Position numbers and translations under genes: made by a program. Under the pieces are notes generated by a model, which saw only the letters and a program-made list of their open reading frames with translations, was not told the DNA's origin and did no database searches. From a bacterium (lineage in GTDB: Bacteria > Electryoneota > RPQS01), in NCBI GenBank assembly GCA_023382385.1, contig JAHDVH010000002.1:696219-760218 (forward strand): a stretch of DNA of 64,000 nt, written 5' to 3'. Below, piece after piece: positions 29,550-41,359 of the stretch (its first letter is position 1; every line of letters starts with the position of its first letter).

Positions 29550-31841
29550 CTACTTCACAAGCATAAGTTTACTTGTGACGGAAGTATGCGCGGAAGTCAA
29601 CGAGACAATATAGACGCCGCTGGGTTGCGAGTCAGCATTCCACAACACTCGGTGCGTTCCAACAGAATGAGTCGCATTGATTAAGGTGGCGACTTTGCGG
29701 CCGGTGACATCATATATATCGAGAGCGACAGGCGCGGAACGCGGAACGTCGTACTCGATGGCGACGCTCGAGTTGAACGGATTGGGATAGGTACTCGTGA
29801 TGGAGAAGTTGGTCGGTAACGCGTCAGGAAGCGGGTCTGCGGAAATTTCACCGAAAAAGATATTCACAGAATCGGCGGCATCAGGCACCAGCGGCAGACC
29901 ATCGTTATCCACCAGCCTCAGAATCACGCGGTGTTCGTACATGCACTCGAGCGTCACCTCCACAGGATTCGCGCTGAAATGCTCGAAAGCAAACGGCGGG
30001 CATTGCGGAATATCCGGTTGAACTTCCACGCGCAGATGACCGTCTCCCAGAGAATCAGAGATGATAAAGTCTTCAACATCAAAGTAAATGGTCACCGGAT
30101 TGTGAAAGACTACGGTATCAGTGGCGGGAGAGGTAATCACAATACTCGGATTTCGCGGCTGATAGATGACATGCACGGAATCCATCACCGGCGGTTCAAG
30201 CGGAAGAAAATTAAGGTCGAGGATTTCAAGCGTGACGAGATTCTCGCCGGGGGACATCGTGACGGGATACGGTGCGACAATGTTTGTCAAGGCCGGATCC
30301 TGATCATTGACCGTGACCGAGACGAAACCGTCGCCGAAGTCGGGATCAATAAGAAAGTTCTCGACTTCAAAGATGATGTTGACCGCCGCGCTGTGAACAA
30401 TCTCAAAATCCTGCGGCGAGACAATGTGAATTTCCGGAGGAAGCTGCGTATTCGGTCCGAGGGATCCGTTAGAATTTACGTTCTGCAGATAGATGTCCAT
30501 CGTCGCGGTGCGCGAATCGGGCCACGCGGCGATGATTTGCCCGAAGGGATTGACGGTGGTATACGGCCGCCCTTTTTCGCTGACAACAGTGCAGAGGTCG
30601 GTGATCGGCGGTGTCCACGTCGGCTGACCGGCGGGATTCAACTGACTTGCGCGCAATAATGTGTTGAGCGCGCTGCCGGGAGCATATTGTGAATAGAACA
30701 CGCCGAAATTATTGCCCTGCATATGTGCACGCACGTTGAAGCACGGCTCGGGAGAAAGTTGAGCGATGGTCGCACCGTTCACATTCCACAGGATGTCGCC
30801 CGCACCGCTCAGCAATTGCGCGTCCAAGCCGCCCATCGACTGATTGCTGTTGGCCGTTTGATAGAAGACGGCAATGCCGTTTCCGGCCAGCACTGCCGAA
30901 GGTGACATCTGCAATTCGTTTGCCGTGAGGTCAACCTGCACACCATTGGCCGTCCACATGACGCTGCCCGCAGCGTTGACGCGCTGCGCAAAGACGTGAT
31001 GCACGTTATTGCGCGTGTCATACCAGAAAGAGTAGGCTCCGCCCGCACCGTCATAAATCACATCGGGCCGCATCTGAATTCCGATACCGTTGGTGGTCAT
31101 GACTGCCACGCCGCCGGCCGGCCACATTGCGGCACCGGAATGCGAATATTTTTGCAGGTAGATATGGCGCGGCGAGGTGAACTGCGACCCTTGATGCACA
31201 AGATAAGAGAGAATCACACTGCTGCTGTCCGCAGCGGCGACGCGCGGTATTGAGACGCCGTTGGTGGCGGTAATCGTAATCACGGCGGGCGTAAAAACAT
31301 CCTGACCTTGCATGTTCAGTCTGCGCAGGTGAATCATGTTTTCCTCCTGCCATGCGAAGACGACATCTCCGTTGTCCATTGGAGCGATGCGCGGGTCTGG
31401 TTCGAATCCGTCGTTGTTCGAGAGCGCGATCCCGTCAGGTCCCCAGAGAAATTCCTGCTGCGGACCGATACTGTAGACCGTGATGTCGCGGTCGCCGCCG
31501 CTGCGAATGTCGTTCACGGCGATGATACAGTTGTCGCTCGCATCAACAGCCATATCCCAGTCGGTGAGCCACGTGTCCTGCGGATGGTTGGAAATCAAAA
31601 TTCCGCAGGGAGTAGCCCACTGCGGCACGCCGTTCGCATCCAAACGCTGCAGGTAAACATCGTAATTCCCAGAGGCCTGATCCTGCCATGTGATGTAGCA
31701 GCCGCCTTCCGAGAGCGCGGCGATTTTAGGGATGGCCTGTTCACCGCTGTGATTGCAGATCAAGAGATTCTGCGCGGGATCGGTTGGCCATTGAGCAAGT
31801 GCGGAGAGGGAGAAAAGTAGTGTGAGCAAAACGCGTTTCAT
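29550..31841 (-). CDS. Large T9SS-tailed secreted protein (beta-propeller plus Ig-like repeats)
   Basis: A 763-residue protein with a short signal peptide (MKRVLLTLLFSLSALAQ). Residues about 18-450 show repeating strands such as GGCYITWQDQASGNYDVYLQ and GAYSFWYDTRNNVHHVFAQR, the pattern of secreted beta-propellers. About 470-680 hold two Ig-like units, each opening I.I.[TS]P with FDVEDF/FEVENF strands and DGLPLVPDAADSV or FLPLEPPVMDSV ends. The C-terminal sorting domain begins TYPNPFNSSVAIEY and ends KLMLVK. It is probably displayed on the surface. No catalytic residues are recognised. It is isolated by terminators on both sides. Confidence 0.88.
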   Translation of the reverse strand: MKRVLLTLLFSLSALAQWPTDPAQNLLICNHSGEQAIPKIAALSEGGCYITWQDQASGNYDVYLQRLDANGVPQWATPCGILISNHPQDTWLTDWDMAVDASDNCIIAVNDIRSGGDRDITVYSIGPQQEFLWGPDGIALSNNDGFEPDPRIAPMDNGDVVFAWQEENMIHLRRLNMQGQDVFTPAVITITATNGVSIPRVAAADSSSVILSYLVHQGSQFTSPRHIYLQKYSHSGAAMWPAGGVAVMTTNGIGIQMRPDVIYDGAGGAYSFWYDTRNNVHHVFAQRVNAAGSVMWTANGVQVDLTANELQMSPSAVLAGNGIAVFYQTANSNQSMGGLDAQLLSGAGDILWNVNGATIAQLSPEPCFNVRAHMQGNNFGVFYSQYAPGSALNTLLRASQLNPAGQPTWTPPITDLCTVVSEKGRPYTTVNPFGQIIAAWPDSRTATMDIYLQNVNSNGSLGPNTQLPPEIHIVSPQDFEIVHSAAVNIIFEVENFLIDPDFGDGFVSVTVNDQDPALTNIVAPYPVTMSPGENLVTLEILDLNFLPLEPPVMDSVHVIYQPRNPSIVITSPATDTVVFHNPVTIYFDVEDFIISDSLGDGHLRVEVQPDIPQCPPFAFEHFSANPVEVTLECMYEHRVILRLVDNDGLPLVPDAADSVNIFFGEISADPLPDALPTNFSITSTYPNPFNSSVAIEYDVPRSAPVALDIYDVTGRKVATLINATHSVGTHRVLWNADSQPSGVYIVSLTSAHTSVTSKLMLVK

Positions 31842-33281: not shown

Positions 33282-33310
33282 TTGACTAAGTTCCTCAAAA
33301 TGCGTATTTT
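33282..33310 (+). promoter_or_regulatory. Sigma-70-like promoter for the MgtE_N/CBS operon
   Basis: TTGACT (33282-33287), a 17-base spacer, TATTTT (33305-33310), in the divergent region between DUF1015 and the CBS protein. Predicted transcript start near 33317. Confidence 0.65.
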
Positions 33311-33407
33311 GTAGACTTATTGGCGAGCACGCAACGCAGTGTCCGCAAGTTCCTACTCCCCTCTTTGTCCTATTCTGTCACCCAAGAATTGGGCTAACCC
33401 GACTTCC

Positions 33408-34685
33408 ATGCGTCTACCTGATGAACTGATATACATGTCCGCTATTCTGGGCCGGCCAGCCTATTCCCGGACGTTGGGGACAGGTATGGGGAAGGTGTGG
33501 GACGTGGTGGCGCAGGTGACGGAGCTGTTTCCCGAGGTGAAGGGGCTGGTGCTGCGGCATCGCGGCCGGTTGGTGCTCTATCCGGCAGCGGGGCAAGAAT
33601 ACCTCGACTTATTGAAGCACGGTCAGCTGAAGGTGGACGAGCACAAGATTTTGCCGCTGGAGCCGGGTCCTGACGATATTTCGATCCGCGATACGCTGTG
33701 GGACAAACAGATTGTGGATGTGGAAGGGGCGAAAGTCGTGCGGGTGAATGATGTTCAGCTCCTGGTGGGAGAGCGGCAGTGGGTGGTGCATGTGGACGTG
33801 GGCGTGTCGGGTCTGGTGCGTCGTCTGGGCTACGAAAGTGCCATGCGCAAAGCCGCACAAGCGTTCGGCAAGAAATTTGAAGACGAGTTGATATCGTGGA
33901 AGTATGTGCAGCCGGTGAGCCATACTCAAGACACTCCCGGACCGGTGCGTCTGAAAGTCGGCGCGCAGCGACTGCGGGAGCTGCATCCGGGAGAGCTTGC
34001 GGACATTCTGGAAGATCTCGATCATTCGCAACGGCAAGTGGTGTTGGCGTCGATGGATGCGGAGACGGCTGCGGAAGCACTCGAAGAGACGGACTACGAT
34101 GTACAGAAGGCGATTCTCGAGAGCCTCGAGCCGGAGCGCGCTGCGGAGATTATCGAGGAGATGGAGCCTTCAATCGCTGCGGACCTGCTTTCGGACTTGG
34201 ATGTAACGGCTTCCGAGCAGATTATTCAGAAGTTCGAGTTTGAAGACGAGCGGGCCGAAGTCACCGAACTGATGACGTATGAGGAAGAGACCGCCGGCGG
34301 CTTGATGACGACGGACTTTCTCGAGATTTCCGAAGAGCAGACGGTGGAAGACGCGATCGAATTGCTGCGCGCGAACGCCGAAGAGATTGAAGCTTATTAC
34401 TATGTGTATGTGCACGACGAGGACGGCAAGCTGCTGGGCGCATTGTCGCTCAGGCATTTGCTGTTGACCGATCCGGCACTGCAGGTGGGGAACATCCTCT
34501 CGGGGCGGCTGATCACCGTTTCGCTGGATGCGGGACTGAAGGAAATCGCGGAGATCTTCCTGACATATAACTTTTTATTCATCCCGGTAGTGGATGACGA
34601 CGGAGTACAAAAGGGCGTAATAAGCTTTAAGGATTCGCTGGACGACCTTATGCCGACGCTTTACAAAACGTGGAAGAAGGATTAG
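33408..34685 (+). CDS. MgtE_N plus CBS-pair protein (magnesium-sensor-like, no channel domain)
   Basis: GTG 33339 is possible, but ATG 33408 (MRLPDELIYMSAILGRPAY) begins the recognisable N-terminal domain; 425 residues. Residues 1-165 look like paired PRC-barrel-type beta domains. About 190-285 is the MgtE N superhelix (LHPGELADILEDLDHSQRQV and VQKAILESLEPERAAEIIEE). About 290-420 is a CBS pair (AGGLMTTDFLEISEEQTVED, NILSGRLITVSLDAGLKEIA). The MgtE membrane domain is absent. In MgtE this cytoplasmic part senses Mg2+. It is coupled to the DEAD-box gene and near an Nramp gene, so it may regulate that transporter. Confidence 0.88.
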   Translation: MRLPDELIYMSAILGRPAYSRTLGTGMGKVWDVVAQVTELFPEVKGLVLRHRGRLVLYPAAGQEYLDLLKHGQLKVDEHKILPLEPGPDDISIRDTLWDKQIVDVEGAKVVRVNDVQLLVGERQWVVHVDVGVSGLVRRLGYESAMRKAAQAFGKKFEDELISWKYVQPVSHTQDTPGPVRLKVGAQRLRELHPGELADILEDLDHSQRQVVLASMDAETAAEALEETDYDVQKAILESLEPERAAEIIEEMEPSIAADLLSDLDVTASEQIIQKFEFEDERAEVTELMTYEEETAGGLMTTDFLEISEEQTVEDAIELLRANAEEIEAYYYVYVHDEDGKLLGALSLRHLLLTDPALQVGNILSGRLITVSLDAGLKEIAEIFLTYNFLFIPVVDDDGVQKGVISFKDSLDDLMPTLYKTWKKD

Positions 34686-35959
34686 TGACGAAAGAAAAGG
34701 AAAAGATCGTCGAGCATACTGCTTTTGAGCAATTCGACCTCGACGAGCGTCTGGTTCGCGCAGTGATTGCACTGGGATATGAGCGTCCGACGCCGATCCA
34801 GAACCAGTCGATTCCGCTGGCGCTGGCGGGAGAAGATGTGATGGGTGCGGCGCAGACCGGTACGGGCAAGACGGCGGCATTCGGTTTGCCGATTCTGCAT
34901 CACGTGCTGAACAGCAAACATGGAAAGCCCGCAGCGCTGGTGCTGTCGCCTACGCGTGAATTGGCCGTGCAGATTGAGGATTCGCTGAAGAAGTATGCCA
35001 AGCATACGAAGATAAAGATACTCGCGATCTACGGCGGCGTGGGCTATGGTCCGCAGCTCGAAGGATTGAAGAAGGGTGCGGACGTGCTGGTAGCAACTCC
35101 GGGCCGGCTGCTCGATCATCTGTCGCGCGGGACCTTGAAGCTTGACTCGCTGCAGGTCCTCGTGCTGGACGAAGCGGATCGCATGCTGGACATGGGATTC
35201 CTGCCGGATGTCAGGCGGATCATCGCGCGCGTGCCGAAGGAGCGGCAGACGATGCTCTTCTCGGCGACGTTTCCCGATGAGGTGATGAAACTTGCCAACG
35301 AGATATTGACCAAGCCGAAGCTGGTTCAAATCGGCGCACGGTCGTCTGCGGCGCGCGGCTTGACGCACACGGCGTATCCAGTGCCCGCGCACTTGAAGCC
35401 TGACTTGCTGCTGGAGATTCTCTTGGAAATCAATTCGCCTGCGGTGCTGATATTCACGCGCACCAAGCATCGGGCGGATAAGGTGCAGAAGCTATTAGCG
35501 AAGAGCAACATCGAAGTCACGAGTCTGCACAGCGACCGCACGCAGCGGCAGCGCACGGCGGCTCTGGACGGATTCAAGCGGGGCAAGTTCAGTGTGATGG
35601 TGGCGACGGATATCGCTGCGCGCGGTATCGACATCAGCGGCATCACGCACGTAGTGAACTATGATCTGCCGGCGACGGCGGAGGATTACGTGCATCGCAC
35701 GGGCCGCACGGCACGCGCAGAGCGGCTGGGAGATGCGATTACGCTCGTCGCACCCGACGAAGAGATTCTGTTGCGCGAGATCGAGAAGCATCTGGGCACG
35801 ACCATGACGCGCAGCGCACTCGCGCACTTCAATTATGAAGTTCCCGCACCGGAAAAGGCCACGAGTCTGCAAAAGACGAGCGGCTCCATCGGCCCGCAGA
35901 AGAAGACGTTTACGTCATCGCATCGCAGACCGAAGATTCCGCGCAGAACCGGAAGGTAA
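34685..35959 (+). CDS. DEAD-box RNA helicase (RhlE-like)
   Basis: GTG 34685, with AAGGA five bases upstream and overlapping the previous TAG, is the best start (424 residues). All motifs are present: Q motif (RPTPIQNQSIP), I AQTGTGKT, Ia PTRELAVQ, Ib TPGR, II VLDEADRMLDMGF, III SATFP, IV VLIFTRTK, V ATDIAARGIDI, VI HRTGRTAR. The C-terminal tail is short and basic (HRRPKIPRRTGR), like RhlE proteins that unwind structured RNA in ribosome assembly or decay. It is cytoplasmic. Its place between a Mg2+-sensor-like protein and an Nramp transporter may be incidental or may link RNA folding with Mg2+. Confidence 0.95.
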   Translation: MTKEKEKIVEHTAFEQFDLDERLVRAVIALGYERPTPIQNQSIPLALAGEDVMGAAQTGTGKTAAFGLPILHHVLNSKHGKPAALVLSPTRELAVQIEDSLKKYAKHTKIKILAIYGGVGYGPQLEGLKKGADVLVATPGRLLDHLSRGTLKLDSLQVLVLDEADRMLDMGFLPDVRRIIARVPKERQTMLFSATFPDEVMKLANEILTKPKLVQIGARSSAARGLTHTAYPVPAHLKPDLLLEILLEINSPAVLIFTRTKHRADKVQKLLAKSNIEVTSLHSDRTQRQRTAALDGFKRGKFSVMVATDIAARGIDISGITHVVNYDLPATAEDYVHRTGRTARAERLGDAITLVAPDEEILLREIEKHLGTTMTRSALAHFNYEVPAPEKATSLQKTSGSIGPQKKTFTSSHRRPKIPRRTGR

Positions 35960-36067
35960 TACAAGGGTTTTTCGACGGCGTTTCTCTTAAAGGAGCATAG
36001 CGCAGCCGCTCAGCACGAACGCAGTATTTGCTTTTCAATATTCAATCTCACTTTTTGATTTTTCAAA

Positions 36068-37330
36068 ATGGCCGCACTGTTCTCAAGATTGACTTACCGC
36101 GCCTCGCCCGCCTGGACGAGGTTTTTGCTGTTTCTGTCAATCATGGGACCGGGTCTGATCACGGCGAACGTGGACAACGATGCCGGCGGAATCACGACCT
36201 ATTCGCAGGCGGGTGCGCACTTCGGGCTGACGGTGCTGTGGATCTTCATTCCGATGACGATAGTCCTGATCATGATTCAGGAGATGTCAAACCGGATGGG
36301 GGTTGTGACAGGGAAGGGGCTCTCGGATTTGATCCGCGAGACGTTCGGGGTACGGTGGACTTTCTATTTGATGATGGCGTTGCTGGTGACGAATTTCGGG
36401 AACGTGGTAGCGGAATTTTCGGGGATAGCGGCGGCGGGGGAATTGTTCGGTGTCTCCAAATGGATTTCCGTGCCGATCGCCGCGCTGCTGGTGTGGGTGC
36501 TGGTATTGAAGGCAAGCTATACAATGATTGAGCGGGTGTTTCTGATTGCAGTGGTGTTTTACGCGGCATACGTGATTGCCGGTGTGCAGGCCAAACCCGA
36601 TTGGGAGCGCGTGGGTTTGGCGCTGGTGACTCCGACATTCACGGGGAATCGCGAGTATCTGCTGATGATTATCGGCGTAATCGGGACGACGATCGCCCCG
36701 TGGATGCAGTTTTATCAGCAGGCGAGCGTAGTTGAGAAGGAAATTCCGCTCAAGCATTACAAATATTCGCGGATAGACACGATTGTCGGCGGTGTCGCCG
36801 TCAGCATCGTCGCGCTGTTTATCGTGATTGTCTGTGCGGAAACTCTCTATCCGACGGGTATGCGAATTGAAGAAGCCTCACAGGCCGCCGCCGCCTTGAA
36901 GCCGTTGGCCGGAGAATTCAGCGCGCTGCTGTTTGGACTGGGGCTATTGAACGCGAGCCTCTTTGCGGCGTCGGTGCTGCCGATTTCGACGTCGTATACA
37001 ATCTGCGAAGCGATGGGCTGGGAGTCCGGTGTGAATTACCGTTGGGATGAGGCCAAACAGTTTTATGTAATCTACACGGCGCTGATCGTGCTCGGCGCGC
37101 TGTTTGTGCTGATACCGGGACTACCGTTGATCCGCGTGATGTTTCTTTCACAGGTGGTTAACGGGGTGCTGCTGCCGTTCATCCTGATTCCGATGCTGAT
37201 TATGGTGAATCGAACGCGGTTGATGGGCAAGTATGTCAACGGTCCTATCTACAACGTCCTGTGCTGGGGGATGGTGATTGTGTTGAGCGGATTGTCGCTG
37301 GTCTACTTTGGAAGTCTGTTGTTTGAATGA
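36068..37330 (+). CDS. Nramp-family divalent metal transporter with altered metal-binding motifs
   Basis: A 420-residue protein with about 11 membrane helices. TM1 reads MGPGLITANVDNDAGGITTY, where canonical Nramp has DPGN after the same MGPG start. TM6 reads IGTTIAPWMQFYQQ, where canonical proteins have a Met-Pro-His stretch; by eye the metal-binding Met position becomes Ala. In the described NRMT clade, loss of that Met goes with Mg2+ rather than Mn2+/Fe2+ transport. Together with the MgtE_N/CBS gene two genes upstream, a Mg2+ role is plausible, but specificity is inferred. No SD precedes ATG 36068. It ends at a bidirectional terminator. Confidence 0.9.
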   Translation: MAALFSRLTYRASPAWTRFLLFLSIMGPGLITANVDNDAGGITTYSQAGAHFGLTVLWIFIPMTIVLIMIQEMSNRMGVVTGKGLSDLIRETFGVRWTFYLMMALLVTNFGNVVAEFSGIAAAGELFGVSKWISVPIAALLVWVLVLKASYTMIERVFLIAVVFYAAYVIAGVQAKPDWERVGLALVTPTFTGNREYLLMIIGVIGTTIAPWMQFYQQASVVEKEIPLKHYKYSRIDTIVGGVAVSIVALFIVIVCAETLYPTGMRIEEASQAAAALKPLAGEFSALLFGLGLLNASLFAASVLPISTSYTICEAMGWESGVNYRWDEAKQFYVIYTALIVLGALFVLIPGLPLIRVMFLSQVVNGVLLPFILIPMLIMVNRTRLMGKYVNGPIYNVLCWGMVIVLSGLSLVYFGSLLFE

Positions 37331-37366: not shown

Positions 37367-37402
37367 CACAAAAAAGGCGCAGACTTATCTGCGCCTTTCT
37401 AA
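37367..37402. terminator. Bidirectional terminator
   Basis: Perfect 11-bp stem aaaggcgcaga (37373-37383) / tctgcgccttt (37388-37398), loop ctta, with A-run and T-run flanks. It lies between the convergent Nramp gene and the gene ending at 37421. Confidence 0.92.
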
Positions 37403-39838: not shown

Positions 39839-41302
39839 CTATCTAATGTACAAAACCTTTTGCGTAGTCACAAACGCGCCGCATTCGAGTCTGATGAAAT
39901 ACACACCTCCGGCAATTGCCTCCGGCGTCCAATTCTGCGTATAAACTCCGGCGCCTGCGCGGCCGTCGAAAAGTGTGGCGATGCCCTGACCCAGCGTGTT
40001 GAAAACTCTTAAGCGCACCTTGTCCGCTCGCGGCATCTCATACTTGATCTGTACAGACGAGTTGAACGGGTTTGGAAAAGCGGACAGGGAAACGGATTGC
40101 GGCAGCGGCGCAGGAGCATCGCGACTGTCGAGAGCCGCATCCCAATGCAGTGTCGCATACTGATAGCGATGGAGCAACGCCTGTCCGGGAATAAACTCGC
40201 GCCAGACGATGTGAATTGTGCCGTCATCAGCAATCAGAGCCTCAACTTCATCAACCTGATAGGCGCCGTCCCACCAAAACACCGTTCCACGAGGTTCGGC
40301 CAAGTCACCATTCGCCGCAATCCTCACGAGATCAATGAATCGGCTGGTGTAGAATAGAGCAGCCCAGCCGAAGTCCCGATGCCAGACAATCTTCTCGTAG
40401 TTGAGGGGAACGGGGTGCGGCTCTGCCTGCCACAGCATTCCCGAAGAGTCAAAGGCAGTCACCCAGTAACGCAAATCTCCACCGACCACAGGACAAGAAC
40501 GCTGCAACGCCAATAAAGTTCCGTCACGGCCGCGGCGAATATCCATAGCACAGCCTTCAAGATACCGCTCGACGCTTTCTTCCTGCGCAGGGCACGAATC
40601 AGTAGAAGCAATCAGGAAGTTCGGTTCTTCCAAACTGTTATCGTAGGACGATGCAAGGACAAATTCCGTTTGACTCTCAGCGGGCAGAGTGAACAGTTGT
40701 GGAAAGACGTTCGGCCAATACGAAGAGAAGTCACTCCAGACACAGGAATCAACTGGTGACGCAGCATCCAATTCATAACTGATCCCGCACAAAGCCTGTT
40801 CCTCCCATGGACCCGCCAAATACCAGTTTAGATAGGAGACAAGCCATCGACCATTGTCGAGAGAATTAACCTGGAAGCCATAGAGCGAAGCGTAGGGATT
40901 TAACGGATCGAAACACTGTATTGGAGCGAAGAAGTTCGACGTATCTCCCTGAGTTTCCCACCTTACCCAATGCTGGCTGTTTCGTCTCTGAACGATGAGC
41001 CAATCACCGTTAGGTTTTGCAGCGACCACTTCAATGGCAGAAGTCCCGCTCGGCGCGAAGTAGACAACTTGCGAATCTGTCGCAAGTGTGTCGGAAGCAA
41101 AGAGCAAATCCCGTTTCTGAATCATGCGCTCGCCGCCGTGCGATCGTTGGAAGAAAAGCACAGCTTTCGTGCTGTCTCCCGGCGCGATGCGCATCTGTGA
41201 AAGATAACTTGACGAATCGCTCGCGAGAATCACAAACGGTCCGTGAACGGGTTGCGCAACGCAGAGACTCGAACAAATCAGAGCAAATATGATCCAAACC
41301 AT
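39839..41302 (-). CDS. T9SS-tailed secreted protein, paralogue B
   Basis: A TTG further upstream is in frame, but ATG 41302 with AAGGAGAT gives a signal peptide (MVWIIFALICSSLCVA) and 487 residues. The mature start QPVHGPFVILASD is nearly the same as in the gene at 43757 (QPVHGPYVVATAD), and both have similar lengths. The body is beta-propeller-like (WLIVQRRNSQHWVRWET, GWAALFYTSRFIDLVRI). The sorting domain begins AFPNPFNSSVQIKY and ends TQKVLYIR. It is the third gene of a likely operon after the paralogue and a TonB receptor. Ligand unknown. Confidence 0.87.
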   Translation of the reverse strand: MVWIIFALICSSLCVAQPVHGPFVILASDSSSYLSQMRIAPGDSTKAVLFFQRSHGGERMIQKRDLLFASDTLATDSQVVYFAPSGTSAIEVVAAKPNGDWLIVQRRNSQHWVRWETQGDTSNFFAPIQCFDPLNPYASLYGFQVNSLDNGRWLVSYLNWYLAGPWEEQALCGISYELDAASPVDSCVWSDFSSYWPNVFPQLFTLPAESQTEFVLASSYDNSLEEPNFLIASTDSCPAQEESVERYLEGCAMDIRRGRDGTLLALQRSCPVVGGDLRYWVTAFDSSGMLWQAEPHPVPLNYEKIVWHRDFGWAALFYTSRFIDLVRIAANGDLAEPRGTVFWWDGAYQVDEVEALIADDGTIHIVWREFIPGQALLHRYQYATLHWDAALDSRDAPAPLPQSVSLSAFPNPFNSSVQIKYEMPRADKVRLRVFNTLGQGIATLFDGRAGAGVYTQNWTPEAIAGGVYFIRLECGAFVTTQKVLYIR

Positions 41303-41359
41303 GACACCATCTCCTTTCGGGACCCACCGAGGGTGAAAGTAAACAACAGGCAAAACTGG

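Follow-up and report, generated by a model that had tools for sequence, protein, structure and literature searches.

What does a carrier of the Nramp family transport, and what controls it, when its gene lies downstream of genes for a channel-less relative of the MgtE sensor domains and for an RNA helicase? The question is raised by a locus in a 64,000-nucleotide stretch of bacterial DNA (the window; assembly GCA_023382385.1, contig JAHDVH010000002.1), taken from a 2.9 Mb genome that is 98% complete. Three genes follow one another on the + strand. The regulator gene P0001 (likely 33408..34685, +) encodes 425 amino acids from the ATG at 33408, near which the conserved part of the protein starts; its reading frame (33339-34685) is open from a GTG at 33339. 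The DEAD-box RNA helicase gene P0002 (34670..35959, +), with a GTG start at 34670 or 34685, overlaps the end of P0001 and is separated by 108 nt from P0003 (36068..37330, +), which encodes an NRMT-type Nramp transporter of 420 amino acids. An earlier note had these genes span 33282-37330; the three reading frames are real, but 33282 itself falls in an intergenic stretch.

The genes are flanked by a divergent DUF1015 gene (PF06245; 31901-33298, −) on the side of the regulator and by a convergent gene on the other, and the divergent linkage of DUF1015 and regulator recurs at most loci of the window's family (f1) and at one locus of family f2 (L070). Between P0003 and its convergent neighbour sits a terminator-like hairpin spotted by eye (37375..37396, no strand assigned), with a 9-bp stem, a 4-base loop, an A-run on one flank and a T-rich tail on the other. 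It is missing from the terminator-scan output, and the promoter/terminator scan of the locus gave a signal barely above chance. No riboswitch was found at the window locus, the only Rfam candidates being weak, sub-threshold STnc40 matches over this hairpin past the last gene. Farther out, two large secreted-looking proteins (29550-31841, − and 39839-41353, −) end in a YPNPFNSS-type stretch, recognized by eye, which may be a sorting signal.

The transporter and its metal site

A defining trait of NRMTs, the Nramp-related magnesium transporters, is Mg2+ transport uncoupled from H+. P0003 matches the Pfam Nramp family (PF01566, 338.8 bits). Among solved structures it is closest to EleNRMT (7qia, E 5e-107), with 4.8e-26 for the runner-up Nramp; the predicted fold of P0003 has a pLDDT of 76.8. 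NRMTs have been defined by DxxG in helix 1 (for DxxN) and TxxA/T in helix 6 (for A/CxxM) (PMC8806188), and P0003 carries the signature in both helices. In TM1, Asp38-Ala-Gly-Gly41 (36179..36190, +) stands where canonical Nramps have DPGN; in TM6, Thr207-Thr-Ile-Ala210 (36686..36697, +; both sets of coordinates calculated via residue numbers) replaces AxxM, so that the segment reads G-T207-T-I-A210-P against GATVMP in canonical paralogues. DPGN had earlier been described as exchanged for DNDAGG; the exchange is real, but the replacing quartet is DAGG, and the first two residues precede it. The accompanying claim, that Ala takes the place of the metal-binding Met of TM6, was borne out by an alignment of both helices with EleNRMT and canonical Nramps, in which no Met falls at this site and Ala210 occupies it.

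The same residues recur throughout the clade. Across 92 aligned NRMT rows, in which one contig is present twice (L075 = L084), D38, G41 and T207 are invariant (92/92), while at position 210 Ala stands in 87 rows, Ser in three and Thr in two. In a tree, the NRMT rows including P0003 join EleNRMT (SH-aLRT 89), apart from seven canonical rows (100); the tree was made by a quick method with a long-branch warning from the program, and the placement of row L021 is unsure. One canonical row (L025, a wrong ORF) was omitted from the tree, yet is among the nine canonical rows of the metal-site alignment. On sequence grounds P0003 is thus an NRMT, and a canonical Mn/Fe Nramp is ruled out by the missing Met, the missing DPGN and the NRMT as best solved match. 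Row L021 (genome G027) is itself an oddity: this Nramp relative shares 32% identity with P0003, its metal site reads DDDPSGIS / GTTISP, and its branch is very long.

A conserved gene pair and a family-level insertion

Is the association of regulator and transporter peculiar to the window? We surveyed 39 genomes of its phylum, counting as NRMTs of the P0003 kind those with E below 1e-150, and found one in 13, all of which also carry the long regulator; in a 14th genome (G035) the regulator is present but cut by contig ends. Among named genomes, the best 80 of at least 587 NRMT loci were scanned, and 73 were informative after exclusion of seven with less than 500 nt upstream. At 68 of these 73 the regulator lies just upstream of the NRMT on the same strand, with a gap of −25 to 221 nt in 67 of the 68 pairs (median 18, often overlapping). 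The exception, L084, belongs to the window's own family and has the helicase in between. No regulator adjoins the NRMT at the remaining five (L119, L129, L130, L161 and L163), as judged by tblastn and by reading upstream ORFs. The linkage is far above chance, and the expectation that the gene pair would be conserved in other genomes held, both at these named loci and in the window's phylum. Upstream of the pair, on the opposite strand, several Geobacterales loci (L123, L112, L137 and L151) carry a tmRNA gene.

The helicase has a different distribution. P0002 matches Pfam DEAD (2.8e-53) and Helicase_C and is CshA/RhlE-like, under the NCBIfam cut-offs. Within family f1 it lies directly upstream of the NRMT, on the same contig, in eight of ten relatives, and in the other two (G033 and G035) the order is regulator, helicase, contig end; in five of the ten, regulator and helicase are separated by other ORFs, and in G031 the regulator is on a separate contig. 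Outside f1, the regulator adjoins the NRMT without a helicase in G026 (f2) and in G023 and G024 (f6), and no P0002-like helicase was found at E 1e-60 in genomes G023-G026. The interval is likewise helicase-free in 67 of the 68 named pairs from the best 80 of at least 587 loci. The helicase, grouped earlier with sensor and Nramp in one unit, is therefore no part of what is conserved: it is a family-level insertion between the genes of the pair, and as a conserved partner it is ruled out by its absence from these named pairs and from three other loci of the phylum, and by the lack of a close homologue in G023-G026.

Could it nevertheless be a working third member that, for example, adjusts how the transporter mRNA is translated in the cold or when Mg2+ is scarce? 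The helicase is part of the locus right across f1, counting the two loci where the contig ends after it, and its start overlaps the 3' end of the P0001 gene. Such a role is very improbable, given the ORFs that separate helicase from regulator in half of the f1 relatives, its absence from the f2 and f6 pairs and the near-uniform absence from named pairs.

The regulator and its magnesium-site residues

P0001 consists of a PRC-type N-terminal region (about residues 1-172), an MgtE_N domain (192-294; Pfam E 3.7e-21), a CBS pair (297-412; two stretches, 4.4e-19) and a short C-terminal tail. Pfam finds no PF01769 channel domain in the protein, in agreement with the earlier description of MgtE_N and a CBS pair without the MgtE membrane domain, and a search of the whole source genome for PF01769, with E values as high as 0.001 allowed, gave no match. 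In sequence and in predicted fold (pLDDT 86.2; VIA Z 24.4 to 26.9 across 228-249 residues), the C-terminal half of P0001 corresponds to the cytosolic domain of MgtE. Since P0001 ends 13 residues past the position of MgtE D250, both the plug and the channel of MgtE are missing.

The N-terminal region is assigned to the PRC type on the basis of Pfam, which matches this part in 42 of 55 members of the regulator family and only weakly in P0001 itself (E 0.19). A profile search of the region against solved structures returned one weak match, to 1pm3 (E 0.84), and the fold search, which barely probed it, gave MgtE-type and CBS chains only among the matches listed. In the literature library searched, no paper combined PRC-barrel, MgtE and CBS. 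No part of the regulator is better conserved than the second half of the region (residues 86-172), where 16 of 87 columns reach 90% conservation or more, compared with 8 of 103 in MgtE_N and 10 of 118 in the CBS pair.

That the strongest conservation lies in this segment and not at the Mg sites bears on whether P0001 touches the transporter at all. It might be co-inherited and act elsewhere, for instance by storing metal or as a Mg2+/nucleotide-responsive adaptor working through the PRC-type region; this would also suit the five of 73 informative named loci (from the best 80 of at least 587) where no regulator was found alongside, and the published test of the A. capsulatum pair, in which co-expression of the corresponding fragment was without effect (PMC4072509). 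The near-invariant, tight and often overlapping pairing (median 18 nt), together with riboswitches shared by both genes, argues for a common job, and we regard a regulator without contact to the transporter as improbable.

How much of the MgtE sensing apparatus is kept? The acids of sites Mg4-Mg7 in MgtE are E59, D91, D95, D226, D247 and D250 (PMC5882242). P0001 keeps four of the six (E59, D95, D247 and D250), with Ser at D91 and Asn at D226. The regulator alignment held 80 proteins, namely the window protein and 79 of 84 matches, five of fewer than 200 residues being left out. Across these 80, D95 is present in all, D247 in 48, D91 in 45 and D226 in 17, and an acid is found at E59 in 67 and at D250 in 54. 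Among 16 channel MgtEs of the window's phylum, D91, D95 and D247 are present in 16/16 and D226 and D250 in 15/16 each, and all six positions are acidic in 13. The Mg5 pair is complete in only five of the 80 regulators; Mg5 bridges the plug in MgtE (PMC5882242), and its near-absence fits the loss of that plug. At the nucleotide site, P0001 reads Y, R, H, S, I, F for the ATP-site pattern Y170, R187, D188, N203, V207, F227; Y170 is found in 68 of the 80 and R187, as R or K, in 74, and the other positions vary.

The Mg4 pair, D91/D247, varies across the family. It is intact in 13/13 regulators linked to an M-box riboswitch (see below) and in 15/33 scanned regulators without one, counts uncorrected for kinship. 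In the 13 own-phylum relatives the D91 position is S, A, Q or P without exception (13/13), and D247 has become His in most. Across regulators the two positions seem to co-vary (DD, SN, AH, SH), as if the residues touched each other. With Mg4 lost in the window's phylum, P0001 is a poorer candidate for a Mg2+ sensor than its M-box-linked relatives, and sensing of Mg2+ by P0001 is accordingly less certain than by them. A search for carrier residues that track the regulator class showed only a phylogeny-like split, and we therefore make no claim for a regulator-carrier interface.

A wider reading of these patterns is possible but doubtful. The Mg2+-sensing half of MgtE may have broken away, acquired a PRC-type docking region and become a subunit that controls a carrier of unrelated fold, and the pair would take the place of the MgtE channel in whole lineages. 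There would then be two classes of regulator, one with Mg4 intact, which includes all those linked to an M-box, and one with S/N, A/H, S/H or S/D at this site (the window's lineage, Syntrophaceae and Myxococcota); the exchanged class might have an altered Mg2+ affinity or another ligand, and may mark a different transported metal.

The transported metal and relation to known systems

Rfam scans covered 54 loci: 39 of the 80 named loci (the best of at least 587) and 15 of 19 own-phylum stretches. An M-box (RF00380) lies upstream of the pair, or of the NRMT alone in L163, at 14 of the 54, with counts of 4/11, 10/12, 0/13 and 0/18 by scanned batch; none was found at the 15 own-phylum loci, nor in the window between 32000 and 38500 at E up to 5. 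L163, from Acididesulfobacillus, has its M-box directly upstream of the NRMT and no regulator gene found adjoining.

An MgtE channel is present in 0/13 NRMT genomes of the phylum as against 20/26 of the others (Fisher 3e-6), a comparison in which absence follows family lines, so that the 39 clustered genomes are not independent. CorA is found in nine of the 13 NRMT genomes, including the source genome, where the NRMT need therefore not be the sole Mg2+ importer; PF00689 ATPases have no match there. In G023 (100% complete) and G026 (96%), both with an NRMT, there is no match to CorA, the MgtE channel or PF00689, which leaves the NRMT as the sole candidate Mg2+ importer found. The source genome also encodes a second, canonical Nramp (L001 823-3448), with MDPGNW and GATVMP and fused to a Usp domain, adjoining a DtxR-type gene with iron-dependent-repressor and FeoA domains; Mn2+/Fe2+ thus has its own carrier. 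The M-boxes of relatives, the missing MgtE channel and the importer-poor genomes favour Mg2+ as the substrate, and, judged from sequence data, P0003 likely imports it.

Mn2+ is the obvious competitor, with P0003 mainly a Mn2+ importer and P0001 sensing Mn2+ or another ligand in place of Mg2+. EleNRMT moves Mn2+ too, and the window's lineage has no M-box and has lost the Mg4 aspartate D91. The one NrmT tested that lacks an M-box, from A. capsulatum and adjacent to an MgtE fragment, fully rescued a Mn2+ mutant and behaved as a Mn2+ transporter; it rescued a Mg2+ mutant only at low millimolar Mg2+, with no further gain from co-expressing the fragment (PMC4072509). Set against this are the canonical Nramp beside its DtxR-type regulator, the absence of both MgtE channel and PF00689 from the source genome, and G023 and G026, which would otherwise be left with no known Mg2+ importer. 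On balance we think a mainly Mn2+-directed system unlikely.

We infer, as the reading that is probably correct though by no means secure, that P0003 is a carrier of Mg2+, and probably also of Mn2+, with P0001 as its dedicated regulator, soluble in the cytosol, and the helicase in no specific transport role. P0003 would import Mg2+, and probably Mn2+ too; on binding intracellular Mg2+ and/or nucleotide, the MgtE-type N and CBS domains of P0001 would shift conformation, and the changed regulator would slow or stop P0003, as the cytosolic domain of MgtE shuts the MgtE channel. Gating of this kind is plausible by analogy with MgtE. The PRC-type N-terminal region, which has no counterpart in the MgtE structures matched, probably serves for docking, and the helicase gene would have slipped between the pair in this bacterial family without acquiring a specific part in transport. 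The locus and its relatives offer a defined, very widely conserved pair for testing the move of a sensor domain from a channel to an unrelated carrier, and the Mg4 classes together with the M-box supply a criterion, readable from sequence, by which pairs tuned to Mg2+ might be told from the rest.

The idea of a split Mg2+ uptake system, put forward in the earlier note, gains from NRMT membership, the M-boxes of relatives and the missing MgtE channel, but had been proposed in print before. Shin et al. 2014 (PMC4072509) described the pair of MgtE-like fragment and NrmT and proposed a cytoplasmic feedback role, so that the core of the window locus is already known. P0001 fits their fragment as a homologue of the MgtE cytosolic domain, without a channel domain and encoded near an NrmT, with a helicase gene intervening. 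The gene pair, the transporter clade and the proposed feedback role are equal; the window locus differs in having no M-box, an intervening helicase and a degraded Mg4 site in the regulator, whose PRC-type N-terminal region finds no mention in the available text of that paper. To this we add the tight spacing of the pair at 67 of the 73 informative named loci, the insertion of the helicase, the finding that NRMT and MgtE channel exclude each other within the phylum, the PRC-type region of the regulator and the classes defined by its Mg4 pair.

Among characterized proteins, EleNRMT of Eggerthella lenta, which transports Mg2+ and Mn2+ (PMC8806188), shares the metal-site stretches NDAGG and GTTIAPWM with P0003 and is alignable over residues 19-408, yet the two are distant inside the clade, on a long branch. 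The canonical Nramp/MntH of the source genome is a Pfam Nramp like P0003 and is set apart by its DPGN/GATVMP site, Usp fusion and DtxR-type neighbour. For the regulator, the closest model is Thermus thermophilus MgtE (2yvy/2zy9), whose N domain and CBS pair align with P0001 residues 210-437 (VIA Z 24.4-26.5); compared with it (PMC5882242, PMC5529423), P0001 has no channel domain, plug helix, D91 or D226, and carries the extra PRC-type region.
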